Assembly (NCBI RefSeq): GCF_000773685.1
Contig: NZ_JPQO01000206.1
Coordinates: forward strand, 1 to 64,000
Source: Acinetobacter sp. HR7
GTDB taxonomy: Bacteria > Pseudomonadota > Gammaproteobacteria > Pseudomonadales > Moraxellaceae
Direction: 5' to 3'
Length of the DNA: 64,000 nt
A model generated the notes under the pieces. That model worked only from the letters and a program-made list of their open reading frames with translations. It was not told the origin of the DNA and did no database searches. Each line of letters starts with the position of its first letter. The first letter of the stretch is position 1. A program made the translations under genes and the position numbers. Positions 5,827 through 44,010 of this stretch are shown here, piece after piece.

Positions 5827-5877
5827 GTACCAAACTGGCAAGAAACATCAGCGCTTGATGTTAGAAAGAAACTCGTT

Positions 5878-8435: not shown

Positions 8436-10091
8436 TTATTCAACTTCTGGCGTCAAAGCCTCTTCCTGATCCAGCAATACTGTACCAAATTGTTCACGCA
8501 GATCTTTTTTCAGCATCTTACCCGTACCACTAAGTGGAATCGCATCAACAAAAATCACCTTGTCTGGAATCTGCCATTTGGCCACTTTGTGGGCATAGTA
8601 ATTCAGCAGATCCTGTTCCGTTAGCTGGCTTTCCGGCTTTTTCACAGCGATCAACACCGGGCGTTCGTCCCATTTTGTATGCTGCGCGGCAATGACGGCT
8701 GCCATGGCAATATCCGGATGGCCCATGGCCAGATTTTCCAGCTCAACCGAAGAAATCCATTCACCGCCCGACTTGATCAGGTCTTTGGCCCGATCTGAAA
8801 TGGTCATAAAACCGTCCTGATCTAGGGTTGCTATGTCACCAGTATCAAACCAGCCATCTATGGTCAGTGCCGATTCTTCCTTGCCAAAGTAATTATTGAT
8901 GATCCAGTGACCACGAATCTGCAAGTTCCCCGTAGTTTCGCCATCCCGCTCAATTTCATGGATGCCATTTTCACCATCCGTCAGACGCAGATCAACCCCA
9001 AATGGCGGACGGCCTTGAGATAAGCGGATTTGTAGCTGCTCTTCTTCACTCAAGTCAAGATGCTTCGGCTTCAGCTGATTGGCAGAACCCAGCGGACTGG
9101 TTTCAGTCATGCCCCAAGCATGGATGGTTTCGCAGTCAAACTGTTCTTTAAAGACTTTGAGCATGGAAGGCGGACAGGCTGAACCACCCACCACATTCCG
9201 TTTCAGGCTTTCCAGTCGAGAGCAAGACTGCTGCGCAGCGGCAATCAGGCCCTGCCAGATCGTTGGTACACCAAGTGCAACAGACACTTGATAAGTATCA
9301 ATCAGATTCACCAGACTAGCACCATCCAGACCTGGACCTGGCAGTACCAAAGTACATCCCACCATAGCAGCAGCATACGGCGTTCCCCAGGCATTGACAT
9401 GGAACATTGGCACTACCGGTAACATGATGTCACGTGCAGAGACATTTAAGGAATCCGGCAGGCTGATGGCAAAACTGTGCAAAGTAGTCGAACGATGGCT
9501 ATACAGCACGCCTTTGGGATGACCCGTGGTTCCAGAGGTATAACACAGTGAACTTGCCGCATTTTCATTTAACACAGGCCAGTCGAAAACGTCGGATTGA
9601 TCAACAATCAACTCATCATAGAATTTGACCTCGGGAATAGCATCTACGATAGCCCCGTCCCGGGCATCCAAACAGATAAAATGTTCCACAGTACTCAGCA
9701 TCGGTTTTACCGCTTTGATAAGTGGCGCGAAAGTTTTATCAAATAAAATCACCCGGTCTGCAGCATCATTAATAATAAACACCAACTGTTCCGGGAATAG
9801 ACGTGGATTGATGGTATGGCAGACAAAACCACCTCCTGAAATCGCGTACCAGGATTCCAGATGGCGATGGTTATTCCATGCAATCGTTGCAACGCGGTCA
9901 CCATGTTCCAGACCAAACTGATTCAGCACATTGGCAAAGCGTTTGGCATTGCTGCGGATTTCACCCCAGGTGGTATGAGTCATACTGAGATCGGTATTCT
10001 TAGAAATGACTGCAGTATCAGCATGATAACGTCCTGCATGTTCAATCATATTGCTGATGAGTAGCGGCTGAAACATCATATTTCCAAGCAT
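8436..10091 (-). CDS. Fatty acyl-CoA ligase, AlkK-like
   Basis: An adenylate-forming acyl-CoA synthetase of 551 residues. Marks are the P-loop YTSGTTGHPKGVLYSHRS, VPMFHVNAWGTPYAA, the GWFDTGDIATLDQDGFMTI block and the C-terminal PLSGTGKMLKKDLR with its catalytic Lys. Many stretches match from memory the medium-chain AlkK of the Pseudomonas alk system (for example VGGSACPPSMLK and IKSGGEWISSVELE). It would activate free fatty acids with ATP and CoA in the cytoplasm. Gene AGGAG lies 8 bases before the ATG. It sits apart from alkane hydroxylase genes. Neighbouring desaturase and beta-oxidation genes fit general fatty acid use. Confidence 0.9.
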   Translation of the reverse strand: MLGNMMFQPLLISNMIEHAGRYHADTAVISKNTDLSMTHTTWGEIRSNAKRFANVLNQFGLEHGDRVATIAWNNHRHLESWYAISGGGFVCHTINPRLFPEQLVFIINDAADRVILFDKTFAPLIKAVKPMLSTVEHFICLDARDGAIVDAIPEVKFYDELIVDQSDVFDWPVLNENAASSLCYTSGTTGHPKGVLYSHRSTTLHSFAISLPDSLNVSARDIMLPVVPMFHVNAWGTPYAAAMVGCTLVLPGPGLDGASLVNLIDTYQVSVALGVPTIWQGLIAAAQQSCSRLESLKRNVVGGSACPPSMLKVFKEQFDCETIHAWGMTETSPLGSANQLKPKHLDLSEEEQLQIRLSQGRPPFGVDLRLTDGENGIHEIERDGETTGNLQIRGHWIINNYFGKEESALTIDGWFDTGDIATLDQDGFMTISDRAKDLIKSGGEWISSVELENLAMGHPDIAMAAVIAAQHTKWDERPVLIAVKKPESQLTEQDLLNYYAHKVAKWQIPDKVIFVDAIPLSGTGKMLKKDLREQFGTVLLDQEEALTPEVE

Positions 10092-10332
10092 GGTCTGCTC
10101 CTTTTTTATCCTTGTTATACATCCATTTACTGTTTTAGGTATTGTTTAAATCATTGTTATTGGTACATGAGCCGCAGGCCAATCAGTGGCGCTTCATAAA
10201 CTCATCACATGTTTGAATCTAGCAAGGAAAAAGGCGAAATCAAGTAGCAAAATGTGACAAAAACAAAGCCACCCACGGATGCGATGAGAAAGGAGAATTC
10301 TGAATTTTTATGGTGCAATAAGCATAGAAATA

Positions 10333-10359
10333 AAAATCCCGGCATGGAACCGGGATTTT
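10333..10359 (-). terminator. Terminator of the small membrane protein gene
   Basis: AAAATCCCGG pairs perfectly with CCGGGATTTT around a 7-base loop. It lies directly after the stop at 10363 on the minus strand. Confidence 0.8.
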
Positions 10360-10362
10360 GAA

Positions 10363-10530
10363 TTATTTGATGCCTGAGAAGAATAGGTTATCGGCATTGA
10401 CCACAAAGGCGACGCCCAGACAGAACAGTCCTGCATAAATCGCGAACCAAATAATCATCTTTTTAAAAGCTTCATCAGAAATGCTGCTGTCCGCATATTT
10501 CGGTGCTTTCTTTTCTTCGTCTGGAGTCAT
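10363..10530 (-). CDS. Small single-pass membrane protein, unknown function
   Basis: A 55-residue protein with a charged N-terminal half (MTPDEEKKAPKYADSSISDE) and one hydrophobic helix (MIIWFAIYAGLFCLGVAFVV). It probably sits in the inner membrane with the N-terminus in the cytoplasm. I chose the ATG at 10530 because AGGTGAG lies about 7 bases upstream; a TTG at 10545 is the alternative. It has its own terminator and is divergent from the MocR-type regulator. I do not recognise a family. Confidence 0.6.
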   Translation of the reverse strand: MTPDEEKKAPKYADSSISDEAFKKMIIWFAIYAGLFCLGVAFVVNADNLFFSGIK

Positions 10531-10715
10531 CTGCTCACCTGCCAATGGATTTGGGACTGTCTCTAGTGTCTATGAACACATTCAAAAAATGTAGATACAA
10601 AAGCGATCTAAAAAAATATAACAGATACTGTATAACTGGCCAAACTGTTATATTTAATCCGACTAAATATGTTATATATGCAGATAAATTTCTATTTTTA
10701 TCTTTTTCTTGATGC

Positions 10716-28622: not shown

Positions 28623-28912
28623 TTTCCGAATAGCTAAAAGTTTTCTTTCAATTTCTGAATGATAAAAATTATTTGTAATTTTCAGCCAAACCAAAATGTG
28701 AAAGTGGTACTAACCTTGCTTAATAAATCAGGATAAAGATAAACACTGATTTTAGCAGTTGGATATGTTTAAAGTATGTAATTAAACCCTAAGTTTAATT
28801 GTACTGTGACACGGTTTCCTGCAATATGAAATCAATAACAATTAGTGTTTATCAGTGAAGATCAAGCACCCCTCTACCAGATAGCCGGACGCCATCAAAG
28901 GTAAGGAATATA
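28623..28912. other. Intergenic, promoter region of the two-component system
   Basis: AT-rich. It holds the palindrome at 28781-28799 and the kinase promoter. GTAAGGA stands right before the kinase ATG. No gene is seen. Confidence 0.45.
28781..28799. promoter_or_regulatory. Perfect palindrome upstream of the sensor kinase
   Basis: ATTAAAC-CCTAA-GTTTAAT, about 114 bases before the kinase start. The AAAC-N5-GTTT core resembles TodT/StyR boxes (AAAC-N4-GTTT). A related AAACCCTAGTGTTT lies before the catabolic operon at 39554-39567. Confidence 0.55.
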
Positions 28913-30394
28913 ATGACCAGCTTAAATTATTATCAAACCATTTTTGATAAAGCGGGTGATGCCATTTTTGTACATGATATCGGCAGTGTCGAGTTCATGG
29001 ACGCCAATGAAGCAGCTGAAAACCTGACGGGTTACAGCAAATCCGAATTAACAAAAATGAGTGTGGAAAAAATCAGTGCCCATAGCCATGGTTTTGATTT
29101 TCATCATGCCTTAAAAAAAGTTCAACAGGCTGCAAGCCACGAAGCCATTACTTTCGAGTGGATGATTCAGTCGCAGGATCAACGCCAGATTCCGGTTGAA
29201 GTCTGTTTAAAAACAGTTGAAATTGAAGATAAACCTAAACTGTTAGCCTTAGTCCGTAATATTAGCGAAATCAAGAAATATCAGTATGCCCTGCAATCCA
29301 GAGATCAGTATTTCAAACTTCTTCTAGAACATTCAGGTGATGGTATCGCCATTCTGGATTTACAAGGCAAACTACTTTATGCCAGCCCTTCTCTACAACG
29401 AATTCTCGGTTACCGAGACCGTTTTGTCCTGAATAAAAATGTTTTAAGTGTTATTCATCCTGATGACCGGATGAAAGTCCGTCAGCTTTTATTTAAACGC
29501 TCGGATGAATACGCACCAAGTGTGATTGACTACAAAATCATGCACCATAATGGTCAATGGCGACACCATGAAGCAACCTATCGTAACCTGCTCGATCATC
29601 CAGACATTCAAGGCATTCTGGTAAATTACCGGGATATTACCGAGCGGGTTGAGGCTGAAGAAATGGCCCGGGCACGGGAAAAACAGCTGGGGCATATGTC
29701 ACGCTGCAAAACCATGGGAGAGTTGGCTACAGCTTTGGCTCATGAACTGAATCAGCCGCTTGCTGCCCTAAATAACTATGTCGGTGGCAGTATCATCCGC
29801 ATCCAAAATGGTTTAGCTAATACCACTGAAACCCTAGATGCTATGAATGCTGCACTGGACCAGACCAAACGGGTCAATAGTATTATTCATAGTATGCGTA
29901 GCTTTTTGCGCAAAGGCGAAGCCAATTATCAGGTGCATGCTTTAAATAAACTGATTCAGGATCTACATCCTTTAATTGGTCTGAAAGCCGATCAAGGTGG
30001 ATGTGTCATCCACTATGAATTAGGTGTTGCCCCGATTTATATCTCTGCTGATGAAACGCTGTTTAGCCAGGTCATTATTAATCTTGTATTTAATGCTGTA
30101 GATGCCCTGCAACGTAATCCAGAAGGACAGCGCGATATCTTTATTCGTACCTGGCAGCACAACCAGCATGCCCGTATTGCGATTGCCGACAATGGCCCTG
30201 GGCTGCAAGGCCAAAATCCGGAACAGTTGTTTGAATCATTCTATTCCAGCAAAAAAGACAGCATGGGTATTGGTCTTACCCTATCACGCAGCATTATCGA
30301 AAATCATCACGGCTATTTATGGGTCTGTGAAGGTGAATCTGGTGCAATCTTTAATATTTCTCTGGCAGCACAGGAGCGTGCAAAATGTATTTAA
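28913..30394 (+). CDS. PAS-domain sensor histidine kinase (FixL/StyS-like)
   Basis: A 493-residue kinase with no membrane spans, so cytoplasmic. PAS 1 covers about residues 5-120 (YQTIFDKAGDAIFVHD), and PAS 2 about 130-250 (HSGDGIAILDLQGKLLYASP). The phospho-acceptor His277 is in ATALAHELNQPLAAL. The ATPase domain has an N box (INLVFNAVDAL), ADNGPG and MGIGLTLSRSII. I see no heme pocket evidence. It overlaps the response regulator by 10 bases. Position beside an aromatic operon with StyA-like genes suggests an aromatic signal, as for StyS or TodS, but the ligand is unknown. Confidence 0.88.
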   Translation: MTSLNYYQTIFDKAGDAIFVHDIGSVEFMDANEAAENLTGYSKSELTKMSVEKISAHSHGFDFHHALKKVQQAASHEAITFEWMIQSQDQRQIPVEVCLKTVEIEDKPKLLALVRNISEIKKYQYALQSRDQYFKLLLEHSGDGIAILDLQGKLLYASPSLQRILGYRDRFVLNKNVLSVIHPDDRMKVRQLLFKRSDEYAPSVIDYKIMHHNGQWRHHEATYRNLLDHPDIQGILVNYRDITERVEAEEMARAREKQLGHMSRCKTMGELATALAHELNQPLAALNNYVGGSIIRIQNGLANTTETLDAMNAALDQTKRVNSIIHSMRSFLRKGEANYQVHALNKLIQDLHPLIGLKADQGGCVIHYELGVAPIYISADETLFSQVIINLVFNAVDALQRNPEGQRDIFIRTWQHNQHARIAIADNGPGLQGQNPEQLFESFYSSKKDSMGIGLTLSRSIIENHHGYLWVCEGESGAIFNISLAAQERAKCI

Positions 30395-31032
30395 ATAATT
30401 CTCATGTTCCCGAGCCTATTGTTTATGTAATTGATGACGATCAGGATATTTGTAACTCTTTGACCTGGTTACTGGATTCTGTTCAACTTGAAACCAAAAC
30501 CTTTAACAGTGCCATTGAATTTCTAAATTACCAACGTCCAAATACACCTGCTTGCCTGATTTTGGATATTCGTATGCGTGGCATGAGTGGTTTACAGTTA
30601 CAGCAACAACTGAATCAGCAAAAGGCCAGCTTACCGATTATTTTCATGACCGGTCATGGTGATATCCCCATGTCAGTCAATGCCATGAAAGCCGGTGCCT
30701 TCGATTTTCTGGAGAAACCTTTTAATCCACAGCATATGCTGGACCAGATTCAGGCCTGTCTACAGCAAGCTGAACAGAACTTTATCGAAGAGGAAAAGCG
30801 CAAACAGCAAATTCAAAAACTAAAATCATTATCACCACGTGAGAATGAAATTATTAATTTGCTGGTAGATGGGCTGTCCAGCAAGCACATTGCCCAGGTA
30901 CTGAATATCAGTCATAAGACTGTAGAAATTCACCGTACCCATATTCGGCAAAAACTGGGTACAGAATCTATTGCACAGATTGTGAATATGGTCCTAATGT
31001 GTAGAGATAGAACCATGCAAGCGATGGGTTAA
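30385..31032 (+). CDS. FixJ/StyR-like response regulator
   Basis: A 215-residue regulator with a receiver domain and a LuxR-type HTH. The acidic pocket is VIDDDQD, the phospho-acceptor is Asp61 (CLILDIRMRG) and the Lys is in FLEKPF. The HTH is LSPRENEIINLLVDG to KTVEIHRTHIRQKLG. It is the partner of the kinase upstream. Candidate targets are the AAAC-N5/6-GTTT sites before the kinase and before the convergent ten-gene operon. Confidence 0.9.
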   Translation: MYLNNSHVPEPIVYVIDDDQDICNSLTWLLDSVQLETKTFNSAIEFLNYQRPNTPACLILDIRMRGMSGLQLQQQLNQQKASLPIIFMTGHGDIPMSVNAMKAGAFDFLEKPFNPQHMLDQIQACLQQAEQNFIEEEKRKQQIQKLKSLSPRENEIINLLVDGLSSKHIAQVLNISHKTVEIHRTHIRQKLGTESIAQIVNMVLMCRDRTMQAMG

Positions 31033-31048
31033 CCCATCGCTTTTTTTT
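31021..31048 (+). terminator. Terminator of the two-component operon
   Basis: GCGATGGGTT pairs with AACCCATCGC, followed by eight T. It overlaps the response regulator stop. Confidence 0.85.
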
Positions 31049-31080
31049 GATTGTTCATTAAAGAATTAAGGAATGAAAAT

Positions 31081-32073
31081 TTAGAAAAAGCGGTCGAAGT
31101 GGATCTGTTGTTGCGGAATACCCGCTTGATGTGCCATCTGTTCAATAGATTTCACCATTGGCGGTGGTCCTGCACAATAAATTTCATGCTGAATTAATTG
31201 TTCACCCAGTACATCATCAATCACTTCATGGATAAACCCAGAACGAATCCCTTCAATCAGCTCAGAAGAAGTCGCAGGAACATAATTTAAGCGTGAGCCT
31301 AATTCGGTCCAGTCACGTAATTGCTGCTCAGTAAGTAGATCTCGCTGTTCACGCCCGCCATGGAAGAACCAGACCTTATGATGTTGCAGCTGTGGATTAA
31401 CTGCAACTCCACGGGCAATGGCCAGCATCGGTGCCAGCCCTGACCCCCCCGCCACACAAACAATTGGTCGTGGCTGTTCCTGTAAATGGGCCAAACCATA
31501 AGGGCCATCAATCTGAATCACCGCATTTTGACGCTGCTGCTCATCAAACAGCAAATTGGTCATTTTGCCATCTGGTACACGGCGAATCTGGAATATCCAT
31601 AAACCTTCATCATTCGGCAAATTCGCCATGGAATAAGCACGTAATAACTGCTCATTTACCCAAAGTAAAGCATATTGACCTGGGATAAATTTGGCAGGCT
31701 CATCTGACTGTAAATGGATTTCTAGAATATCATGGGTGATTGGCTGTACATGCTTAAGCTTTACTGCTTGTTGTTTTGGTAAGATTTTCGGTGTGCATTG
31801 TTCATCCAAGCGGACTTTAATGACACAATCAGATTTAGGACGGCATTGGCAAGCTAATAGACGACCTTTACGACGGTCACGATCACTCAATCCAGGTGCT
31901 TCAGCCCACAGGTTGTCTACTTCACCAGACAGAACTTCTATTTTACAGGTTCCACAACCACCGGCATTGCATTCGTAAGGTAAACCAAGACCTTGGCGAA
32001 GGCCGCCGCGCAGCAGCACATCGTCTGCTGCACAATGAAATTCCCCTTGCCCTTCAATTTGGATTTTATACAT
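31081..32073 (-). CDS. NADH:ferredoxin oxidoreductase with N-terminal 2Fe-2S domain
   Basis: A 330-residue reductase. It has an N-terminal 2Fe-2S domain (CNAGGCGTC, LLACQCRP), an FAD domain (LLRAYSMANLP) and an NADH domain (CVAGGSGLAPMLAIA, YCAGPPPMVK). It is the last gene of the ten-gene minus-strand operon and should feed the Rieske ferredoxin or the Rieske oxygenase directly. I use the ATG at 32073, with GGAG 8 bases upstream; an ATG two codons earlier overlaps the previous stop. Having both this reductase and a separate Rieske ferredoxin is more than a two-component oxygenase needs. Confidence 0.9.
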   Translation of the reverse strand: MYKIQIEGQGEFHCAADDVLLRGGLRQGLGLPYECNAGGCGTCKIEVLSGEVDNLWAEAPGLSDRDRRKGRLLACQCRPKSDCVIKVRLDEQCTPKILPKQQAVKLKHVQPITHDILEIHLQSDEPAKFIPGQYALLWVNEQLLRAYSMANLPNDEGLWIFQIRRVPDGKMTNLLFDEQQRQNAVIQIDGPYGLAHLQEQPRPIVCVAGGSGLAPMLAIARGVAVNPQLQHHKVWFFHGGREQRDLLTEQQLRDWTELGSRLNYVPATSSELIEGIRSGFIHEVIDDVLGEQLIQHEIYCAGPPPMVKSIEQMAHQAGIPQQQIHFDRFF

Positions 32074-32078
32074 CGGCA

Positions 32079-32411
32079 TTACTCCACCAGATAAACCCGA
32101 TCTTCGCGGACAATAGACTGATAGGTTTTTAGCGGAATGGTACAAGGTGCTCCACAAGGCTCACCTGTTTTAATATCGAAAGCACCGGCATGAAACGGAC
32201 ATTCCACTTCACAACCATCTATTTCACCATCTGCCAGTGAGGCATCACCATGGGTACAGGTATCATCAGTGACATAGAATTCGCCATCTTCCAGATGGAA
32301 CACCGCCAATGGTGGATAGCCCTCAATAATCACCTGTAAACCTTCACCCTGTTCAATATCGGAAGTCAGGCAAAGGAATTTTTCTGCAATATTGGCCATT
32401 TTGATATTCAT
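32079..32411 (-). CDS. Rieske-type 2Fe-2S ferredoxin
   Basis: A 110-residue ferredoxin of the biphenyl/naphthalene dioxygenase type. The Rieske ligands are CTHG and CPFHAG. It would shuttle electrons from the reductase to the Rieske oxygenase at 35.9-37.1 kb. Its ATG overlaps the SDR stop (ATGA), so translation is coupled. A short tail (QSIVREDRVYLVE) ends it. Confidence 0.9.
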   Translation of the reverse strand: MNIKMANIAEKFLCLTSDIEQGEGLQVIIEGYPPLAVFHLEDGEFYVTDDTCTHGDASLADGEIDGCEVECPFHAGAFDIKTGEPCGAPCTIPLKTYQSIVREDRVYLVE

Positions 32412-33178
32412 TTGCTTAACTCCTCAATCGGTGAATCTGTCGCTTCAGGCCCCAAAGTGTGATAACCGCCATCAGCATGAATCACACTGCCAGTCAGCAG
32501 TTTAGCTTTCGGACTACATAACAGGCTTAAGGCTTCAGCCACTTCTTCTGCATCGGCAATGCGACCCAGTACATGGAAACGGCCTGCAACGCGATCAGTT
32601 TTAGGACGATCATTTCCTGAAATCATCTGCATCGGCACCGACCAAGTCCAGCCGAGGGATAAGGCATGTACACGAATACCATCAGCAGCCAGATCCAGTG
32701 CCATGCTTTTAGTCAGTTGTTCTAAGGTTGCTTTAGAGGCTGGATAAACCCAACGCTCTTTTTGGGCAATGCGGGCGCTAACACTACTAATATTAATGAC
32801 AGCCCCATCATTGCTGGCCTGCAGCAATGGTCTACATGCCTGTACCAAAGCTGCATGACCAAACACGGTCACATTAAATGTATTTTGCCAATCACTACGG
32901 GTTGATTGTGAGCCATGGTCTTCATACACACAGGCCAGATTCACTAAAATATCCAGTCGATTTAGTTTGCTACAGAGAGCTTGAATACTGTTATCACTGG
33001 CAAGATCCAGATATTCATAATGACTTTGGGTCTCGTCTGCCACCTGTTTGCCTTGTGTTTCATTAATATCGGCAATAATGACGTCGGCACCCAAACTTTT
33101 TAATTCTTTGACTACTGCCTGGCCAATGTGGGTTGCGCCCCCAGTGACCAGAACCACTTTATTATTCAGATCGGTCAT
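32408..33178 (-). CDS. Short-chain dehydrogenase in the catabolic operon
   Basis: A 256-residue SDR. It has the NAD motif VTGGATHIGQ, NLACVYEDHG in place of NNAG, Ser in NISSVSARI and the catalytic pair in VYPASKATL. The C-terminus has a glycine-rich DGGYHTLGPE. It would oxidise a diol or alcohol made by an oxygenase; in indole clusters (IifB) and indoleacetate clusters (IacE) an SDR fills a comparable step. I use the ATG at 33178, with AGGAGG just before it and a four-base overlap with the flavin reductase stop. Confidence 0.88.
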   Translation of the reverse strand: MTDLNNKVVLVTGGATHIGQAVVKELKSLGADVIIADINETQGKQVADETQSHYEYLDLASDNSIQALCSKLNRLDILVNLACVYEDHGSQSTRSDWQNTFNVTVFGHAALVQACRPLLQASNDGAVINISSVSARIAQKERWVYPASKATLEQLTKSMALDLAADGIRVHALSLGWTWSVPMQMISGNDRPKTDRVAGRFHVLGRIADAEEVAEALSLLCSPKAKLLTGSVIHADGGYHTLGPEATDSPIEELSK

Positions 33179-33699
33179 GAAACCTCCTTGTATTGTGGCC
33201 ATTCCGTAAATTGCCCTTTGCAGAACAGTAATGGGCGTTGATTGCTATGTCGGCACTGTTCAATTTTCCCCAAGAAAATCTGGTGATCACCTGCTTCAAT
33301 CTGCTGTTCACGACGGCAGATAAACTGCACTACGCAACCTTCCAGTACCGGTGCTTTAGTAGTTTCAAGATTCCAACTCCCATGCTGGAATTTGTCTGGA
33401 ATTGGCTTGGCAAAATTTAGTCCGATCTCTTGCTGATCTGCTCCCAGAATATTGATGGCAAAGTATTCTGCATTTTCAAAAACAGTACGGCTTGGTGAAT
33501 GATTTACCAGACTCCAAAGCACCAGCGCAGGATCAAGAGATACCGAGCTAAAAGAGTTAATCGTAAGACCAACAGGTTGTTGCTGTTCATCCAGACAGGT
33601 GACAATTGCGACACCTGTGGCAAAACCGCCGAAGGCCTGCCGAAGCGCTTTTGCTTCAGCCAGGTCAACGTCCTGCCACAAAACTTCAGGCAGCTGCAT
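33175..33699 (-). CDS. NADH:flavin reductase
   Basis: A 174-residue flavin reductase of the HpaC/StyB type (FATGVAIVTC, LTINSFSSVSLDPALVLWSL, GDHQIFLGKIEQ). It would supply reduced FAD to the StyA-like monooxygenase, whose gene end it overlaps by 14 bases. I use the ATG at 33699, with AAGGAG 7 bases upstream. An open frame runs 51 codons further up inside the monooxygenase gene but has no ribosome site. Confidence 0.88.
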   Translation of the reverse strand: MQLPEVLWQDVDLAEAKALRQAFGGFATGVAIVTCLDEQQQPVGLTINSFSSVSLDPALVLWSLVNHSPSRTVFENAEYFAINILGADQQEIGLNFAKPIPDKFQHGSWNLETTKAPVLEGCVVQFICRREQQIEAGDHQIFLGKIEQCRHSNQRPLLFCKGQFTEWPQYKEVS

Positions 33700-34957
33700 G
33701 TTGAAACTCCTTACGTGACAGATATTCTTTCGCCCCTTCTGCACCATCCACGGCTGGCCAGAAACCACGCGGATTATTAAAGTGGCCCATAAAGTCATCC
33801 GCAATTGCACTGTTTTGAGATGCTGCTCCCAGAACTTGAAGTAAGCTTTCACTTGGTGGATTCAACAACAAGTTGGTGAATTCTGTGGTATATCGGCCTG
33901 ATTTCTCCCAGAAGTCATCAAAGACTTGTGTCATCCATTCAGGTGTAAATGCGGCATCGCCATGCTCTAGAATGGCTTGCAAATAATGCTCGACCATACG
34001 CGTCGCATTGTTGGCACCCTGACCAGCAATCGGGTCATTGACCATCACTGTGTCCCCAATACCCCAAATCGAAGCACCATTTTCCAAAGTCGCAACCGGA
34101 TAACGGACTTCTGGACGGAAAGCACCTTTCAACCAGGCATTTGGATCACTGAGTTCCATATTGTCGACCATACGGAAACTTTGATCTGGTGTGACTTTGG
34201 CCACGGCTTGTTTCATGCGTTGCAGCATTTCTTCGCCGCTAGTGACATCATCAAAAATGTCCATCGGGCCGTTTGGTACACATTCAAACAGGAAGCTACG
34301 GCATGGACCATGCGTATGGCTGTAGAACGGCATACTGAAGTATTCACCTGCTCCAGCAACAAAGTTAAAGTGCAAGGTTTGTGATGGCTGACCTTGCCAG
34401 CTATCTGGACCACATAGATCATCACCTACAACGAGCGCTGCGGCCAGTTTACGTGGCGGAGTTTGGTGCACAGAACGTGATTCATTGCGTTTGAATAGAC
34501 TCGTAATATTGCCCTTACCTGCAGCGAGAATCGTTAAATCATTTTCAGCACAGATGATTTCCAGATCTTCAGGCGTGACATTCTGGATCACCAGCTTGCC
34601 TCCACGGCGTGGATATTCTTCTAGCCAGCGGTGATATTTGGTACGCTGGTCCATGGCAATACCTTTATTTTCATGCAGGAAGCCTGTTAATGGTAAGGCA
34701 ATCGAGCCATCTGGAGCGCGGAAATCCACATGAATGGCCTGTCCGTGATGCGCCTTACCATCCCAGAAATTCAAGCCCAGTTTGCGTTCCACTTCCAGCG
34801 TATTGGCGAAGAACATGGTCGTACTGACCATACGGCCATGTAATAGTTCTTCAGCTGGACGGTCCACATATAAAGTAACGTCGTATTTTTTTTCTAGTAA
34901 TGAGAATGCCAGTAATAAACCTGCCTGCCCACCACCAATAATTGCAATTTTTCTCAT
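33686..34957 (-). CDS. StyA/IndA-like FAD-dependent monooxygenase
   Basis: A 423-residue flavoprotein close in length to styrene monooxygenase StyA (about 415). It starts with the FAD motif IAIIGGGQAGLLLAFSLL and has the second flavin motif DPIAGQGANNATRM. The C-terminal half shares StyA-type patterns (TEFTNLLLNPPSESLLQVL, FNNPRGFWP). This class uses free reduced FAD and O2 to epoxidise styrene or the 2,3 bond of indoles. The flavin reductase gene follows directly, and no ring-opening enzyme of styrene catabolism (isomerase StyC, dehydrogenase StyD) is present. An indole-type substrate is therefore more likely than styrene, as inference. Confidence 0.88.
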   Translation of the reverse strand: MRKIAIIGGGQAGLLLAFSLLEKKYDVTLYVDRPAEELLHGRMVSTTMFFANTLEVERKLGLNFWDGKAHHGQAIHVDFRAPDGSIALPLTGFLHENKGIAMDQRTKYHRWLEEYPRRGGKLVIQNVTPEDLEIICAENDLTILAAGKGNITSLFKRNESRSVHQTPPRKLAAALVVGDDLCGPDSWQGQPSQTLHFNFVAGAGEYFSMPFYSHTHGPCRSFLFECVPNGPMDIFDDVTSGEEMLQRMKQAVAKVTPDQSFRMVDNMELSDPNAWLKGAFRPEVRYPVATLENGASIWGIGDTVMVNDPIAGQGANNATRMVEHYLQAILEHGDAAFTPEWMTQVFDDFWEKSGRYTTEFTNLLLNPPSESLLQVLGAASQNSAIADDFMGHFNNPRGFWPAVDGAEGAKEYLSRKEFQHAAA

Positions 34958-35013
34958 CTCTTGAATTCCTCTTCGGGCCGTTTCTGATGCAGCAGCTATC
35001 GTTATATTTGCGC

Positions 35014-35475
35014 TTATGTTGTCGGATACGGCTGATTAAACGTCAGGTTTAATTCCACCCGGTCAAATTTCCACTCACCTTCTGCATCACAGCGAACAGT
35101 GGCTTGATAAAATCCGCCTAGACAGCTGGTGCTTGCCTGCTGACCTTTTTCGGCCAGGTTACAAACTTCCCAGAGCATCCAGCTGACATTGGCATGTTGC
35201 TGATCCAGCACTTTGATATCCGGCATTGCCATAATGTGCAGGCTCCACAGCACTTGCGCTTCAGCAATCCCAGACAGCGCATCTAGAATGTTTTGTCGAC
35301 CTTGATATTCGCCAAAACCATTGGCACACCAAACCGCATCTTTATGAAACAGATGCTGCATAATGGCTGGGTTGTTGCGCTGATCAGCCGCTGTTGCGTA
35401 GCGACCCACCAGACTGCGAATGGCCTCGCAGCTTTCTAGGTAGTGCAAACGGGTTTCTAGATTGTGCTGGCTCAT
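35014..35475 (-). CDS. SnoaL-like protein, possible Rieske oxygenase beta subunit
   Basis: A 153-residue SnoaL/NTF2-fold protein (YLESCEAIRSLVGRYATAAD, then HKDAVWCANGFGEYQGRQNI, ending FDRVELNLTF). Such proteins are either small enzymes or the beta subunits of Rieske oxygenases. Its distance of only two genes from a Rieske alpha gene suggests it is the beta partner, comparable to IacD beside IacC. A stand-alone isomerase or hydratase role is the alternative. Confidence 0.75.
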   Translation of the reverse strand: MSQHNLETRLHYLESCEAIRSLVGRYATAADQRNNPAIMQHLFHKDAVWCANGFGEYQGRQNILDALSGIAEAQVLWSLHIMAMPDIKVLDQQHANVSWMLWEVCNLAEKGQQASTSCLGGFYQATVRCDAEGEWKFDRVELNLTFNQPYPTT

Positions 35476-35486
35476 ATTCAGTTCCT

Positions 35487-35840
35487 TTAAACGTTGACCA
35501 CGTCACCGGTTTCATAAACAAAACGGGTTTCTTCAAAGGCATAAGGAACACCCACTGAACCTTTATAGAGTTCGATATGCGGCGCTATTTCTGCAAAGCT
35601 CAGGCTAAGCCAGTACAGCTTGTGCAGTTCTTCTGGCAATGAACCCAATGGATATTGGTCTAATGCAGCCAGCAGTTTGCGCATTTCAGGCAGGATTGCA
35701 TCATAGAATGCCTGTAGCTCTTCTTTAGTCGAGTTCAGACGTGCTAGATGACGCTGTTTAGAGGTTCCTAAAGCCCATTTCGCTACAAAAGGTTCCAAAG
35801 CAGCAAAGTCAGCAGGTAGTTGTGAAATGATATTTGACAT
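35487..35840 (-). CDS. 117-residue protein of unknown function in the catabolic operon
   Basis: A helical, soluble protein (LEPFVAKWALGTSKQRHLAR, LQAFYDAILPEMRKLLAALD, LPEELHKLYWLSLSFAEIAP, PYAFEETRFVYETG). I see no metal, nucleotide or flavin motif. AGGAG lies before its ATG and 11 bases separate it from each neighbour. Indole-type clusters carry small proteins of similar place: IifA, described as a cofactor-free oxygenase, and IacB, of unclear role. It may be one of these, but I cannot confirm the family from memory. Confidence 0.75.
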   Translation of the reverse strand: MSNIISQLPADFAALEPFVAKWALGTSKQRHLARLNSTKEELQAFYDAILPEMRKLLAALDQYPLGSLPEELHKLYWLSLSFAEIAPHIELYKGSVGVPYAFEETRFVYETGDVVNV

Positions 35841-35851
35841 GCGAATTCTCC

Positions 35852-37054
35852 TTATGCGCGATTCAGGTATTGTTCAAGAACGTGGTAGCCATGACGAATC
35901 AGGATTTCTTCGTCTTGTAAATGCATGACTTTCTTCGCCTTAGATTCCAGAGCTTCTTGGGTATCTTCCATGGTTGCAGTATCTTCTAACCATGCATTGC
36001 GCTGTAAAACTTGCGCGAATTCCTGTGCCCAACGCTCTGAATAAGTTTTCGCTTTAGGCAGGTAGTAACGGCCTTCCCAACGAGTCTTGTTATGACCGAC
36101 TGGCCAGAACTGATGGGTAAACCACACGCCTTCTGTCACGTGTACAAGGATATTCGGGAAGATAACTGATAGTTCGAATGAAAAATCATCACGGTCATTT
36201 GGATTCACTGACTTCGGTAACTGGTTACGTTCATAGTGGTTGACCAGTGATGCTCCGGTAATTTCTCCGGAAAGTGCCGCAGCTGGTTTTGGATTGGCAT
36301 TTTTGGTTAAGCACACTGCACAGGTACGGTGGTCACCGAATAATTGAACTTCCTGTAAGCCAGAGGCAAATACATTCGGGAATGAGCCAGCATGAATGGT
36401 TGCAACGTGGTAAGCCTCGGCGAAGGCATCATGTGCCACTTTCCAGTTACAGTTCAGTACCGTGTTATAAGCAAAGCATTCTTCCATTTCATGGAATGGA
36501 TAACCGCCTAGGTGCTCACCCATGCCACCTAAAAATTCTTCAACACCTTGTGTACCTTCATTATCTAAATTAACAAAGATGAAGCCTTCCCAAACTTCAG
36601 TACGTACTGGCGCCAGACCATTGTGGCCTTTGTCAAAGCAAGAAGTGAATTTTTCTTCTTCAGGTACGCTAACCAGATCGCCTTTGGCATCATATACCCA
36701 GCCATGGAAACGACAGGTAACAACCGCAGCCTTACTTGAACCAAAAGTTTCATTATCAGTTTCTACAACGACTTTATTACCACGATGCGAACAGATGTTA
36801 TGGAAACCACGGATTTCACCGTCTTTGCCATGCATAAGGATTACAGAGGTTTTAGCGAAGTCCAGACGCTTCACTTTGTAATCACCTTTCTTTGGAATTT
36901 CTTCGACACGACCAACTTTCAGCCATACTTTAGAGAAAACTTTGTCGATTTCTTCCTGATAGATTTCAGGTGAAATACATGGTTCTGTTGGAATCGGTTC
37001 AATACCGAGTTCAGGATAAAGTTCGCCCCAACGGAGTTTAGAATTACTGTTCAT
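35852..37054 (-). CDS. Rieske non-heme iron oxygenase, alpha subunit
   Basis: A 400-residue aromatic ring-hydroxylating oxygenase. The 2Fe-2S ligands are Cys88, His90, Cys114 and His117 (CSH, CRFHGW). The catalytic iron ligands are His216 and His221 in DAFAEAYHVATIHAG, with Asp209 as likely bridge. It is shorter than BenA and clearly distinct from it. Electrons would come from the Rieske ferredoxin and reductase at the operon's end. The substrate is unknown; IacC-like action on an oxidised indole derivative, giving catechol, is an attractive option given the cat genes nearby. Confidence 0.88.
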   Translation of the reverse strand: MNSNSKLRWGELYPELGIEPIPTEPCISPEIYQEEIDKVFSKVWLKVGRVEEIPKKGDYKVKRLDFAKTSVILMHGKDGEIRGFHNICSHRGNKVVVETDNETFGSSKAAVVTCRFHGWVYDAKGDLVSVPEEEKFTSCFDKGHNGLAPVRTEVWEGFIFVNLDNEGTQGVEEFLGGMGEHLGGYPFHEMEECFAYNTVLNCNWKVAHDAFAEAYHVATIHAGSFPNVFASGLQEVQLFGDHRTCAVCLTKNANPKPAAALSGEITGASLVNHYERNQLPKSVNPNDRDDFSFELSVIFPNILVHVTEGVWFTHQFWPVGHNKTRWEGRYYLPKAKTYSERWAQEFAQVLQRNAWLEDTATMEDTQEALESKAKKVMHLQDEEILIRHGYHVLEQYLNRA

Positions 37055-37143
37055 ATGACATTCCTGTTCAAGTTTCTAAGTTCTTTACTTTCAATATGCA
37101 GTGGCATAGCACCACTGCAGTTGTTGGCTAATTTTGCTTTTGA

Positions 37144-38478
37144 TTAAATTTGATAATGTTCGCGAACCAGATCTGCAATGCCGAGTTTTTCCAGAATTGG
37201 CATCGGGCAAAGGAAAGTAGCGCGAACCATACCTGGCAAACGGCTGATTTCAATTGAACCTGTAATCGTGCAGCGGTTCATGACTTCGTCGTAGCTCAAG
37301 CCTGTAGTTTTTGCAGCACGGTTCAGAGCATTTTCAGTTGCATCATTCAGGTTCTTGCCTGTACCCATAAAAGTGATTGGGCCGCTTTCTTCAATTTCGG
37401 TTTGCCCCCAACGCTCACCCAGTGCTTTCACTTTTTCTTTCTCTTCTTTGGTAAATGGGCGTGCCATTGGTGGAAGATCATCTGGTGCTTGCAGCAGGAT
37501 TGGACCATCAATAGTCAGACCTTTGATCACTTCCACTTGCAGTTCAGTTTCCCCTGATACATCTGTTGCGTGACCGGCAATTTCGCCATTACCTTGCTGT
37601 GCATGCATATCGCCCATATAAACACCAGCACCTGGCACTTTTACTGGACAAATCAGAATACAACCCGGACGAATGGAGTTAGTATCCATATGACCGTCCG
37701 TTTTCGCTGCAACTAGTTCTTCTTCAGTCATTCCATATTTATGTGGTGCATCAATCAGGAATTGACCAAAATCATGGCAGTTATGTGAGTCTGGCAAGTC
37801 ACGTGCAGGTGTGGTACCAATATTGCCCAGGAATGGACGCATGTGCGCTGCTACACCTGGCATATCAGCACGTGCCAGTGACAGAATAGAGTGCTGTGCT
37901 GCATGCTCAGGAAGTGCTGAAAGTTCACTCGCATTTCCAGCGAGTTTGTTCGCAATCTCTTGATTTACAGTCAGACTGACTTTGTTTTCTTCATCTAGCA
38001 CAATCACATACCCGTGAGAGAAGCGGAAAGCACTTACTTCTGCACCACAGTTTTTACAGTGAATCGCATCTTCACCAATGCCTTCAACGTAACTGGCTGG
38101 CTGTTCAGTCCCACAAGCATTACAGTATTTCGCCACAAACGGGTCGCCATGGTAACGGCCTTCAACAAACTGCATCACACCTGAAGAAGTTGCGATTGAC
38201 GTTACTTTCATCTTTTTGATTTTCAGAGCAACAGCATCACCTACTTCTGCACCTTCAATCGCCACAGGTAAAGTCACTTCATGACCGCCCTGAAATGCAG
38301 GGGTAATCATGGGGCCCCAGCAGCCTGGTGGTGTACCGGTTTTTAAAGTGCCGCCATTTTTTAGTGGACCCAGCATGCGTTGGCTTGGGCCAACAATACC
38401 GCCAGAAAACTCATTAACGATCAGGTAATCCACAGCATTTGTGCTGCCTGCTGCATATTCTTGGTTTTCAATTTTCAT
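37144..38478 (-). CDS. Acetamidase/formamidase family hydrolase with zinc-ribbon insert
   Basis: A 444-residue FmdA/AmdA family amidase (TLKTGTPPGCWGPMITP, GHMDTNSIRPGCILICPV, GAGVYMGDMHAQQGNGE). Between residues 119 and 144 it has Cys-x2-Cys and Cys-x2-Cys (YCNACGT, CKNCGAE), which looks like a zinc ribbon. The family hydrolyses small amides. In this operon it could release formate or acetate from a ring-opened N-acyl aniline. It is the second gene of the operon, 34 bases after the channel gene. Confidence 0.85.
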   Translation of the reverse strand: MKIENQEYAAGSTNAVDYLIVNEFSGGIVGPSQRMLGPLKNGGTLKTGTPPGCWGPMITPAFQGGHEVTLPVAIEGAEVGDAVALKIKKMKVTSIATSSGVMQFVEGRYHGDPFVAKYCNACGTEQPASYVEGIGEDAIHCKNCGAEVSAFRFSHGYVIVLDEENKVSLTVNQEIANKLAGNASELSALPEHAAQHSILSLARADMPGVAAHMRPFLGNIGTTPARDLPDSHNCHDFGQFLIDAPHKYGMTEEELVAAKTDGHMDTNSIRPGCILICPVKVPGAGVYMGDMHAQQGNGEIAGHATDVSGETELQVEVIKGLTIDGPILLQAPDDLPPMARPFTKEEKEKVKALGERWGQTEIEESGPITFMGTGKNLNDATENALNRAAKTTGLSYDEVMNRCTITGSIEISRLPGMVRATFLCPMPILEKLGIADLVREHYQI

Positions 38479-38512
38479 AGTCTTACCCCTGTAGTCTTAA
38501 ATAATTGATTGC

Positions 38513-39397
38513 TTAAAATGGAACGGTAATGTCGAGGGCAAACTTTTGACCTTCAGGTCGGTTTTCCACATTAAATTCTTTTTGGTATTTGGCTGCTACA
38601 GCGATGCCTTTCGGGAATTGGTAACGAACCTGTGGACCAATGCTGGCTGCTTTGGCTTTGAAATCGCCAAGAATTGCGCCCTCTCCTGAGTCGCCTTCAA
38701 GCTGACGATGCACATAACCACCTAGTCCTACAGCTAATGGACCAGTGTGTTTGGCAACCAGATAATCCACATGTAAGGCATTGCCTGATTCATAGTTGGT
38801 ATCTTTGTTTTCGAAGTTGATGTCGTACATCCACTTGGTCGTTACTTCGATACCCTGCTTGTTCAGGTAAGTCGCAGAAACAATTGGCTGAATGGTGTAG
38901 TAGTTACGCCCGATATTGGACAGACGGTTTTTGTTGTAAGAACCCACTGGAATATAGAAATCTACGCCAGTTGCTACATGAAAATCGCCTTTGTGCCAGC
39001 CCAGCAGGAATGGATCGATAATCACATCACCCATAGATCGGGTTTCGTCTTGATTACCACCTAAGGTAATGTCGGCGTTGGCATAGACTAGGAATGCGTG
39101 CATACCCCAATTTGCACCAAGAAAAGTTTTGTCACTAACGTAAATGCCACGGGCTACTGTCGCGAAAGTGTCCAGTTTGAAATCATCAAATACTGGATGA
39201 TCATTTTTGAATTTGTCTGCTGAATAAAATTGGTTATAACTCATCAGGTAAGTACCTGGAGGCGGCATTGCACCACCGAAGAAACTTTCCGTGCCATCTG
39301 GATAAGCACTGCCACCATTTTCAGCTGCTAGTGCGAATGGTGCGCAACCGAACAGGCTTGTGGTCAATGCCACTGTTTTTAGATATTTTCTTACCAT
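38513..39397 (-). CDS. Outer-membrane channel, phenol-MetA-degradation family
   Basis: A 294-residue protein with a signal peptide (TVALTTSLFGCAPFALAA). The mature part of amphipathic beta strands ends in DITVPF, with a terminal Phe as in outer-membrane barrels. Proteins of this type (MetA-pathway) lie in many aromatic catabolic operons and are thought to admit hydrophobic substrates. It is the first gene of the ten-gene operon, so the promoter lies in 39398-39620. Confidence 0.78.
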   Translation of the reverse strand: MVRKYLKTVALTTSLFGCAPFALAAENGGSAYPDGTESFFGGAMPPPGTYLMSYNQFYSADKFKNDHPVFDDFKLDTFATVARGIYVSDKTFLGANWGMHAFLVYANADITLGGNQDETRSMGDVIIDPFLLGWHKGDFHVATGVDFYIPVGSYNKNRLSNIGRNYYTIQPIVSATYLNKQGIEVTTKWMYDINFENKDTNYESGNALHVDYLVAKHTGPLAVGLGGYVHRQLEGDSGEGAILGDFKAKAASIGPQVRYQFPKGIAVAAKYQKEFNVENRPEGQKFALDITVPF

Positions 39398-39744
39398 TTA
39401 CAGCATTCCCCTGGTTCCTAAAGTCTTTGTTTTTCAGGCTTTCAGCCCTTTAAGCTCATGACTTAATCTAGACCTGAAACATGGCAGGGAAATATAAGGA
39501 CGAATCTGTGTTGTGTTAGGTGAATGTTATGTAGCAGTAGCGAATGGCTTTATAAACCCTAGTGTTTTGTATAGGTTTAAATAGGAAAATGACAGATGGC
39601 TATAGGGGTTTTTACTTATATGATGGGCTGAAAATTGGCAAATTTTTTTTAATATTTTTTGGATTTAATACAGATAAGTAGGATTGAATTACTAAATAAG
39701 AAATGAAGTGCCCTAACAAATGGGGTTAAAGCACTTCTTAAAAT
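39398..39744. other. Intergenic, promoter region of the catabolic operon
   Basis: Holds the minus-strand promoter of the ten-gene operon and the AAACCC-type motifs at 39551-39615. Beyond that it is AT-rich without a gene. Confidence 0.45.
39551..39615. promoter_or_regulatory. Candidate response-regulator sites before the catabolic operon
   Basis: AAAC-CCTAGT-GTTT at 39554-39567, an inverted GGTTT at 39574-39578 (dyad with AAACC), and a third GGGTTT half-site at 39606-39611. The first site shares AAACCCTA with the palindrome before the sensor kinase. They lie about 150-215 bases before the first gene. Confidence 0.45.
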
Positions 39745-39853
39745 AAAGACAGGAAAATCACCTCATTCTCTGCCATTAAAGTCATCTGCAAATACATTAA
39801 AGGAAAAATATTTTATGCATTAGCAGAGCTTATGATTAATTAAAAATGGAATG
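39745..39853 (-). pseudogene. Decayed copy of the EamA gene 5' end and promoter region
   Basis: On the minus strand an ATG (39772-39774 on the plus map) opens a frame that reads MAENEVIFLSLF then stop. The start of the EamA gene reads MAISWIFFTL. The sequence before the ATG matches the EamA upstream region (see 28505-28622). It is a truncated remnant in the same orientation as the intact gene 11 kb away. Confidence 0.55.
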
Positions 39854-39964
39854 AAGGTTGATAGCAGAAAGTCTGGATTAACAAGGCGACGAATTATGTC
39901 GTAGTTCAATTGACTAGAAGCATAAATATTTTAAGATCTTCTTTAAAAAAAGATCGGAATTAAT

Positions 39965-40450
39965 ATGAAAATACCAAGTGATGCAAAACAAATTTTCTTA
40001 CTAGAGTTAGTAATATCTATTCTTAGCACATTTTTTTTAATGGGGCTTACCTTTTTATATTCTCGTAGTGAAGGTCTTGTCGAATTAATTAATGGCTATA
40101 ATGATCAATTTAAAACACCTAATTTAATGAATTTATTAATTTTACTCTTTATTGGTCTAATTACTTGGATTTTTTATTATTTCTTTAATTTTAAGCATAA
40201 GATTTTTCTTAAGAAATTATCTGTGGAGCTATTTAATATTTGCATCAATTTGCTTCGGTTAGCTAGTGGCATTATGTTTTCATTTATAATTTTACATTTA
40301 CTAGTAGAGGGATATTCAGAAAAATTACCTCGCATTTTTCTCTTTGGTTTCTTGGCGCTAGTTGAAGTCACTTGTTTTTCTTACTTTAAAGATTATTATT
40401 TTTTTAAAGAAAAATCATCATATACCCCAATAAAATATAGAGCCTCTTAA
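39965..40450 (+). CDS. AT-rich integral membrane protein, unknown function
   Basis: A 161-residue protein with four predicted spans (LLELVISILSTFFLMGLTFLY, LLILLFIGLITWIFYYFF, LASGIMFSFIILHLL, IFLFGFLALVEVTCFSYF). I recognise no family. The gene is far richer in A and T than its neighbours, a sign of foreign origin. It sits between the decayed EamA fragment and the urease genes. GGA lies about 8 bases before the ATG and a hairpin terminator follows its stop. Confidence 0.65.
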   Translation: MKIPSDAKQIFLLELVISILSTFFLMGLTFLYSRSEGLVELINGYNDQFKTPNLMNLLILLFIGLITWIFYYFFNFKHKIFLKKLSVELFNICINLLRLASGIMFSFIILHLLVEGYSEKLPRIFLFGFLALVEVTCFSYFKDYYFFKEKSSYTPIKYRAS

Positions 40451-40469
40451 ATTTATAGAGGCTCTTAAA
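40439..40469. terminator. Terminator between the membrane protein gene and ureC
   Basis: AGAGCCTCT (40439-40447) pairs with AGAGGCTCT (40457-40465). T-content after the stem is low on both sides, so it is weak. The stem overlaps the end of the plus-strand gene. Confidence 0.5.
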
Positions 40470-40472
40470 ATC

Positions 40473-42876: not shown

Positions 42877-43130
42877 CTCCCTCCCAATGGGATGAGAGAC
42901 AGAGTCTCGCAAGAGAGGGATGGTTTATGGCAAATGCTTGACCTCTCCCTAATCCTCTCCTATAAGGAGAGGGAACTTTTCTCTAAATTCACAATGGAAG
43001 CTCCTCCCTTTGTAAAAGAGTGAGAAGCACTGCTTCGCAAGGAGGGATTCTTAAAAAATAATCTCCCCAAACCCCTCTTTTTCAAAGAGGGCTATCTCCT
43101 CCCTTTTACAAAGGGAGGTCGGGAGGGATT
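42877..43130. repeat. Cluster of GC-rich intergenic repeats between ureD and ureA
   Basis: At least five units occur: about 42877-42922, 42942-42974, 43009-43048, 43062-43091 and 43095-43130. Each has a CTCCCTT- or CCTCTTT-type left arm and an AAGGGAGG- or AAGAGGG-type right arm. The last ends AAGGGAGGTCGGGAGGGATT, the same 3' arm as in the cat cluster. Confidence 0.75.
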
Positions 43131-44010
43131 ATGTCCTCCAAATCCTCGGAAACTCTTCATCCAGCCCAAACCAGTAACGGCGTAAACGGGCACGAATTGC
43201 TGCAAATGCATCATGACATTGGCGTACATCATCTCCGAGATAACGGGCGGTAACCACATCATCCAGCAAAGTCAAAGTCACGGGTACATCCATGCGCATA
43301 ATCAGTTCACGAATCAGATCCAGATGCTCATCCAGATAAAAGCTGGCACGGTATTTTTCCGGCGGTACTGCCCAAAAGCTGCCCATGACGGCATGACCAT
43401 TCATGCCGAGGCAAGATTTTAACCAGCGATCCTGACCAAAAAATTTCAACTGATCTGCAACCAACAGCTTTGAACCGCGATACAGCAAAAATCGGCTACG
43501 ATAACCGCCTTGCTCAAACTGCTCGGATCGTGCCTGACGGCCAATCACCAGCATATCCCAGCCAATAAAGCTGGCAGTCTGATCGAGCTGAATCGTGGTA
43601 GAGGCATGCGCATTGGCACCATCAAACAGCATGGTTTCCTGTGGCAGCCATTCAAAAATGCCCTGTTCTTCCACCCGGATATCAATATGCTGATAGGCCT
43701 GTTTCAGGTTGGTTTTGTACCATTTGCCTGCGCCCGGTGTAGTGACCAGACCATGCGCATTTGGCCCAACTTTCATGTCAAAGCTGAGGTGGTCACCACC
43801 AGCAATCCCCGCAGGTGGATGCACAATAATGGCGTGGCAGACCCCAGTCTTTTCAGGCCACAGCATTTTCTGCACACGCACCGGCCCTTCATGTCTGCGA
43901 TGTTGCAGGATGGTTCGTCCGGTGCTGGCATCGGCTTCAAACCCCAGTTGCAAACGTGCAAACCAGAGTTTTGTTGCCGATCCGTGTTCTGCTTCTACCA
44001 CGCTATTCAT
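43129..44010 (-). CDS. ureD: Urease accessory protein UreD
   Basis: A 293-residue urease activation chaperone ([52 protein letters not shown]). UreD with UreF and UreG loads nickel into the apoenzyme. I use the ATG at 44010; a GTG four codons earlier is possible, with AGGA too close to it. The stop lies at the edge of the repeat cluster. It stands after ureG, not in front of ureA without a break as in many clusters. Confidence 0.93.

Follow-up and report, generated by a model that had tools for sequence, protein, structure and literature searches.

What does the ten-gene operon at positions 31081 to 39397 of this Acinetobacter sp. HR7 sequence degrade, and into what? The operon lies on the minus strand of a 64,000-nucleotide stretch (contig NZ_JPQO01000206.1, positions 1 to 64,000; here called the window) and encodes an outer-membrane channel, an FmdA/AmdA-type amidase, a Rieske oxygenase alpha subunit, a 117-residue protein (p117), a SnoaL-like protein, a StyA-like monooxygenase, a flavin reductase, a short-chain dehydrogenase/reductase (SDR), a Rieske-type ferredoxin, and a ferredoxin reductase. 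Together with a two-component gene pair, it is flanked on the left by a benzoate/catechol cluster and on the right by a urease alpha gene. Skatole is the main fecal odor compound and a major manure odorant, and we propose that the operon is probably an accessory unit for the degradation of skatole, and probably also of indole, ending in catechol for the adjacent cat genes.

All ten tightly packed open reading frames (ORFs) listed by an earlier, sequence-only reading were confirmed, with the starts of the flavin reductase, SDR, and ferredoxin reductase genes corrected from the sequence reading. From the channel gene on, the genes are separated by gaps of 34, 89, 11, 11, and 56 bp and then overlap by 14, 4, 4, and 1 bp. 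A Pfam family could be assigned to nine of the ten proteins, p117 being the exception; among the NCBIfam matches listed, no operon protein reached an equivalog cutoff, and the SDR scored above one subfamily cutoff. The gene arrangement is not due to chance, because two Acinetobacter plasmids carry the ten genes and the regulator pair in an identical order and because 9 of 77 Rieske-gene loci hold all seven other genes counted. These 77 loci correspond to the best 80 of 573 matches obtained in a Rieske-alignment scan of one genome per species.

The monooxygenase pair and the link to skatole

The StyA-like protein (33686 to 34957, minus strand) carries the Smoa_sbd domain (PF17885) and is encoded beside a partner flavin reductase (33175 to 33699, minus strand; PF01613), a combination that qualifies it as a two-component flavin monooxygenase of group E. 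By analogy with homologs, the pair would very probably catalyze the first step, the epoxidation of skatole at C2-C3. PDB entry 9lrq matches the group E monooxygenase over its whole length, yet it is labeled "Alanine-phosphoribitol ligase."

The residues at StyA positions 46, 48, 50, and 96 separate the window protein from both known types. Among 40 rows compared, the four styrene-type rows read N-V-H-S, the fingerprint expected for a styrene operon styABC, and 17 indole-type rows read S-Q-M-A, while all 16 operon-linked rows have S or T, T or A, one of F, L, or M, and G. With S-T-F-G, the window StyA lacks the fingerprints of both indole monooxygenases (IMO; S46-Q48-M50, A96) and styrene monooxygenases (SMO; N46-V48-H50, S96). 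The Variovorax (misread frame), A. vitis, and Tsukamurella rows fit none of the three patterns. Positions 73 and 76 were not used in the fingerprint, because the IMO rows lack the published residues there. In a first tree, the skatole-type StyA group had a support of 89/93. A second tree, built without the misread Variovorax row, A. vitis, Tsukamurella, and three near-copies, split the 16 operon-linked rows from 14 indole-type and 4 styrene-type rows with a support of 92/96; neither tree included the partial StyA rows L101 and L128. The second tree is suggestive, not conclusive, of a separate skatole-type group.

The sequence-only reading had likened the first half of the operon to the indole-oxidizing iif cluster, and the comparison bears this out: StyA is 39% identical to an IifC-type protein and the SDR (32408 to 33178, minus strand; assigned by Pfam) is 43% identical to its IifB-type neighbor. 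In Acinetobacter baumannii (L100) and Burkholderia pyrrocinia (L118), the iif operon contains a StyA-like protein, flavin reductase, SDR, and channel of the same families. It differs in having a DLH-family protein, which we took as IifA, where the window's operon has the Rieske subunit, p117, SnoaL, and FmdA instead. No DLH domain was found in the ten operon proteins, and neither p117 nor SnoaL matched the DLH protein. The suggestion that p117 is an IifA-like oxygenase had to be given up: BLASTP detected no similarity, and p117 tracks the Rieske gene instead.

The closest functional precedent comes from Acinetobacter piscicola p38, a pig-feces isolate that grows on skatole as carbon source (PMC11434297). 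Genes 1684 (ring-hydroxylating alpha subunit), 1687 (StyA), and 1690 (hcaC ferredoxin) were raised on skatole, and purified 1687 and 1688, supplied with FAD and NAD(P)H, together degraded indole and skatole in vitro, while 1650 and 1651 degraded indole (PMC11434297). Four anchors of the p38 cluster 1684-1690, namely, the Rieske gene 1684, StyA 1687, reductase 1688, and ferredoxin 1690, fit the window order exactly, and from the gene numbering, p117 and SnoaL would correspond to 1685-1686 and the SDR to 1689. The p38 cluster also shares its genus and pig-feces origin with other copies of the operon, and its monooxygenase pair acts on both skatole and indole. The p38 work assayed StyA and the reductase only. 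A text search of PMC11434297 returned no mention of 1683, 1685, 1689, or "Rieske," and 1684 appeared solely as "gene1684" in tables.

A second skatole system, the Rhodococcus ska cluster (skaCDZEFGHAIJKRLB), likewise joins a group E monooxygenase to a ring-hydroxylating oxygenase but differs in gene order and in its LuxR-type regulator SkaR; its authors placed the p38 enzyme in the SkaMO clade and called for further work on the later part of skatole breakdown (PMC13101512). The p38 precedent and the pig-feces and pig-manure plasmids that carry the operon support skatole as the likely substrate, one of several that the sequence-only reading had named. The ten proteins do not all find their best matches in a single characterized non-indole pathway.

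A possible route from oxindole to catechol

The second half of the operon centers on the Rieske oxygenase alpha subunit (35852 to 37054, minus strand; assigned by Pfam). Its Rieske ligands, His216, and Glu213 are invariant in all 77 loci, with His221 conserved in 75 and Asp358 in 76. Glu213, at what is presumably the bridging position, aligns with a Glu of carnitine monooxygenase, whereas biphenyl dioxygenase (2gbw) has Asp there. The best PDB match to the Rieske profile is the oxygenase subunit of carnitine monooxygenase (6y8j), an enzyme whose substrate is carnitine and for which we know of no p117-like partner.

The p117 gene (35487 to 35840, minus strand) accompanies this Rieske gene closely. 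It lies within 400 bp of the matched gene in 66 of the 77 loci (58 downstream, 8 upstream); among the others, two loci are truncated at a contig end, p117 lies at a greater distance in five, and it is missing from four, all of them Binatia. Seven of 175 Acinetobacter genomes encode p117, each time beside such a Rieske gene, and the window's genome has ten Rieske-domain matches and one p117. A reverse search with p117 in 398 Pseudomonadota genomes, which scored few candidates per genome and so says little, recovered only the window's own genome. The predicted model consists of four helices (pLDDT 93.5). Neither Foldseek (best E of 1.9) nor VIA-align (best Z of 4.5, rmsd of 4.1, 68 aligned) gave a convincing relative among solved structures, and we took as chance the single-member family matches (Pfam, E of 0.0062 and 0.0081; superoxide dismutase, E of 0.0058) and the weak PDB profile matches (best E of 0.006). 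Judged from its sequence, p117 appears to represent an undescribed family for which neither Pfam nor NCBIfam has a model and which, across several phyla, is linked to a single Rieske subfamily.

The SnoaL_4 protein (35014 to 35475, minus strand; PF13577) matched by profile the dehydrochlorinase LinA (E of 4.8e-9) and the dehydratase BaiE (E of 1.5e-5). Its D31 and H80 are invariant in ten of ten sequences and align with an Asp and a His of LinA that we take to be the catalytic pair. A role as Rieske beta subunit was rejected: the 15 PDB sequences at E of 0.01 or below include LinA and BaiE, and none is named as a Rieske subunit. FmdA (37144 to 38478, minus strand; PF03069) shares a GDxHxxxGxGE stretch with two solved family members, and we regard it as a putative pyruvamide hydrolase.

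Following epoxidation, the epoxide would hydrate, and the IifB-like SDR would oxidize the diol to 3-hydroxy-3-methyloxindole. The Rieske oxygenase, with p117, the ferredoxin (32079 to 32411, minus strand; PF00355), and the ferredoxin reductase (31081 to 32079, minus strand; Fer2, FAD- and NAD-binding domains), would then add O2 across the ring-fusion carbons. The resulting hemiaminal would open to a beta-hydroxy ketone, and retro-aldol cleavage would release catechol and pyruvamide with all atoms balanced, a step that we infer to be possible because the first steps install the 3-hydroxyl. SnoaL could act as the acid-base catalyst of this cleavage, FmdA would hydrolyze pyruvamide to pyruvate and NH3, and the MetA-type channel (38513 to 39397, minus strand; PF13557) would admit the substrate. 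Lactamide in place of pyruvamide was rejected, since its atom balance fails.

Catechol is likely the end product. The idea that the operon feeds neighboring cat genes is supported by the ben-cat genes themselves, which NCBIfam confirmed as a BenM-type regulator, catB, catA, benABCDE, CoA-transferase subunit A, and enol-lactonase. Cat-pathway genes also adjoin the operon on plasmid L013 and in the A. pecorum (L149) and A. stercoris (L018; catA only) loci. For the pyruvamide step, we put the chances a little short of even.

Some chemical precedent exists. The Rieske system LumABCD converts a quinoxaline dione to a catechol by ring opening, and by its description this ring opening of a benzo-fused lactam resembles the one proposed here, although LumABCD is an alpha-beta enzyme with another substrate (PMC12746152). 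Clusters for indoleacetate degradation (iac; Pseudomonas putida 1290 and others) are alike in logic by description, with a flavin monooxygenase, an SDR, a Rieske pair, catechol as product, a SnoaL-fold IacI, an amidase IacH, and a small IacB (125 aa in LB400) (PMC11676955, PMC11373566, PMC7225977). They differ in that IacA is of the acyl-CoA-dehydrogenase type and the Rieske oxygenase has a beta subunit, IacD. None of the ten operon proteins has an IacA-type acyl-CoA-dehydrogenase domain, and no iac cluster was recognized by eye in four A. baumannii regions. Angular dioxygenation has been speculated on in indoleacetate breakdown (PMC8383072), and IacH was suggested to free ammonia (PMC11373566). 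For the conversion of DOAA to catechol, the intermediates are described as undetermined (PMC9613470), and the step from 3-hydroxyoxindole to catechol is described in the same terms for indoleacetate (PMC9613470, PMC7225977). The operon makes that step testable, naming a small protein set and one product, pyruvamide.

It is tempting, though with rather less than even confidence, to regard the Rieske alpha subunit, p117, and SnoaL as a new oxygenase system in which an obligate four-helix partner would assist a bridging-Glu Rieske enzyme in the ring-fusion dioxygenation of 3-hydroxyoxindoles, followed by a LinA/BaiE-like lyase that would split off an alpha-keto amide, pyruvamide in the case of skatole, and by FmdA. 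If true, this would constitute a general indole-to-catechol route without anthranilate, fed by StyA-type or perhaps, in Polynucleobacter, FMO-type oxidases, and its chemistry would be shared by the iac route. Our searches of the open-access literature turned up no description that we recognized of the second half of the route or of p117. The new parts are p117 and the proposed chemistry, the first enzyme pair of the operon having already been published in p38.

Alternatives to the proposed route

Several points weigh against the degradation of skatole to catechol by this operon. The experiments on the first step concern homologs rather than the window's genes, and the tree support for the skatole-type group (92/96) is short of full. 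The window's operon is equated with the p38 cluster by gene order and numbering, and the third to fifth steps are proposals. Anthranilic and benzoic acid were among the many compounds present when p38 was cultured on skatole, and the Rieske gene 1684 was raised on indole too (PMC11434297). Loss of the amide in the Lum pathway is nonenzymatic (PMC12746152), so that chemistry of this kind can do without an amidase. A 77% identical FmdA occurs in Cupriavidus KK10, a skatole degrader, with this Rieske gene absent within 12 kb. No cat gene lies within the stretches examined of five of nine Acinetobacter loci (L014, L017, L150, L151, and L152). A scan of 20 flanking ORFs, five of them without a family and perhaps spurious, found no gene for use of a lactate- or pyruvamide-like product; the lead given by Marinomonas, where a gene resembling lactate dehydrogenase neighbors iacH, was not borne out among these ORFs.

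The chief alternative concerns the order of the last steps. FmdA may first open the lactam of 3-hydroxy-3-methyloxindole, or an isatin-like product may form, after which the Rieske oxygenase would attack the free aminophenyl compound in the manner of anthranilate dioxygenase to yield catechol, ammonia, and pyruvate, or the route would run by way of anthranilate. The atoms balance equally well, the Rieske protein weakly matches anthranilate dioxygenase models, and the anthranilic and benzoic acids of the p38 cultures mean that an anthranilate route fits as well (PMC11434297); the iad route for indoleacetate indeed runs from isatin to anthranilate (PMC9613470). On the other hand, in the stretches examined of Cupriavidus KK10, Paraburkholderia, and C. 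oxalaticus, FmdA relatives that are 75 to 77% identical occur without this Rieske gene, a finding in keeping with a hydrolase of small amides. Furthermore, the opening of a 3,3-disubstituted oxindole is chemically unfavorable. We consider this order unlikely, and where the sequence-only reading had left the product as anthranilate or catechol, we judge catechol the likelier and anthranilate less so.

A second possibility, that indole is the main substrate and the operon a second indole pathway, appears quite unlikely. The first half of the operon is homologous to iif, 1687 with 1688 degrades indole, and 1684 responds to it; against this, gene1687 is listed as raised on skatole, not indole, while the iif-type gene1650 is the one listed on indole (PMC11434297). 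The window StyA lacks the indole-type residues, and three of the seven Acinetobacter genomes bearing a skatole-type StyA have an indole-type StyA as well. Least probable is that the operon serves another N-heteroaromatic or indole derivative, for example, one with a different side chain, and that skatole oxidation is a side activity of StyA: 66 of the 77 Rieske relatives are in clusters without StyA, so the back half serves other compounds elsewhere, and in p38 the first skatole step alone was demonstrated, but skatole induces the p38 genes and supports growth (PMC11434297), and the plasmids bearing the operon are of fecal origin.

Distribution, regulation, and neighboring features

The operon is patchily distributed in Acinetobacter. 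The host assembly comprises 3.12 Mb in 227 contigs, and the same-species genome G174 is colinear with the window on both sides of the operon, where it has 2.4 kb in place of ~11.8 kb (28644 to 40470). This 2.4-kb stretch contains a transposase-like gene, recognized by eye, and a 303-aa ORF. Two Acinetobacter plasmids, L013 from pig feces and L014 from pig manure, carry complete copies of the operon. A StyA match of any kind occurs in 45 of the 175 Acinetobacter genomes; copies at least 77% identical occur in 7, and the remaining matches are 36 to 41% identical. We conclude that the operon is a movable, accessory catabolic unit of some manure-dwelling bacteria, most likely degrading skatole to catechol. 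On the G174 contig (L148), two transposase-like genes (5286 to 6614 and 9247 to 10602) share their beginning, one being at the operon site and the other beside the urease genes. On the pig-manure plasmid (L014, 442 to 9929), BREX-type defense genes (pglZ, brxL) adjoin the operon.

Across species, StyA is present in 11 of the 77 Rieske loci, each of which has a full-length FmdA. Nine of them hold StyA, FmdA, an SDR (at least 40% identical), kinase, regulator, ferredoxin, and SnoaL; they represent six genera, namely, Acinetobacter (two loci), Xanthobacter, Burkholderia (two), Zoogloea (two), Cupriavidus, and Ideonella. The other two StyA-bearing loci are on short contigs. Gene order varies among the full-set loci, and the channel gene was matched in Acinetobacter and Xanthobacter only. 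Further loci, many from sphingomonads, have FmdA, Rieske, p117, SnoaL, and ferredoxin genes without StyA, the FmdA match being partial in some, and 40 of the 77 loci, the more distant ones, have none of the seven other genes counted. In a Polynucleobacter metagenome-assembled genome (L032, 864 to 16511), an FMO-like monooxygenase and an IifB-like SDR (44% identical to the window's) surround FmdA, Rieske, p117, and SnoaL, together with a second amidase (PF01425), a purine/cytosine-type permease, and meta-cleavage-type genes. From the loci without StyA and the Polynucleobacter front end, the back half looks like a module that takes different first enzymes. The sequence-only reading, which had described a hybrid joining indole and indoleacetate logics, stands in part: the term is apt for the logic, while the unit itself is a recurrent cluster whose first enzyme pair has been published in p38.

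Two related arrangements were seen. Acinetobacter G088 (L019, 6991 to 11064) has another Rieske and p117 pair, with the Rieske protein ~31 to 33% identical, accompanied by a flavodoxin, a metallo-beta-lactamase-fold protein, and a MetA-type channel and located near an intradiol dioxygenase and a thiolase; it appears to be a related system for another substrate. In loci L031 and L042, which each have two Rieske paralogs, SnoaL comes after one paralog and p117 with ferredoxin after the other, an arrangement in which SnoaL and p117 seem to belong to separate oxygenase subunits.

The operon faces a convergent two-component pair, confirmed by Pfam at 28913 to 31032. The histidine kinase (28913 to 30394, plus strand) has two PAS stretches, HisKA, and HATPase and is present in all nine full-set loci; the FixJ/StyR-type response regulator (30385 to 31032, plus strand; receiver and GerE domains) is 44% identical to StyR over 194 aa. 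The kinase is likely to sense skatole or a product of it, and the regulator would activate a promoter before the channel gene. Between the converging units, an inverted repeat of 10 pairs followed by T (31019 to 31042) could end transcripts, with the pattern scan finding 14 such repeats versus 10.3 expected in the region.

A candidate regulator box, ATAAGT-N6-CCCTAT (39602 to 39619, minus strand), lies ~205 bp before the channel gene. Upstream of this gene, the exact inverted repeat ATAGGT-N6-ACCTAT is present in five Acinetobacter operons, and the A. stercoris copy has one mismatch. When no more than one mismatch is allowed, the pattern ATARGT-N6-ACCTAK, drawn from the same loci on which it was scored, occurs in 15 of 17 operon loci (Xanthobacter and Ideonella have none) and gives 5 strand hits at 3 places in 118 other loci (1.55 Mb); locus L152, which breaks off ahead of the promoter, belonged to neither group. 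No enrichment was seen for a slightly wider pattern in the window's genome (46 matches with at most one mismatch versus 119 for a reversed control) or for the first pattern in the window at three mismatches (20 versus 19.7 expected). Given the origin of the pattern and this lack of enrichment, the box, put forward on position and conservation, is a lead only.

Between the operon promoter and ureC, a 161-aa ORF (39965 to 40450) without a Pfam family lies in a stretch that is absent from G174. Farther on, the intergenic segment at 43057 to 43131 has many short partial matches across G174 and constitutes a short interspersed repeat.

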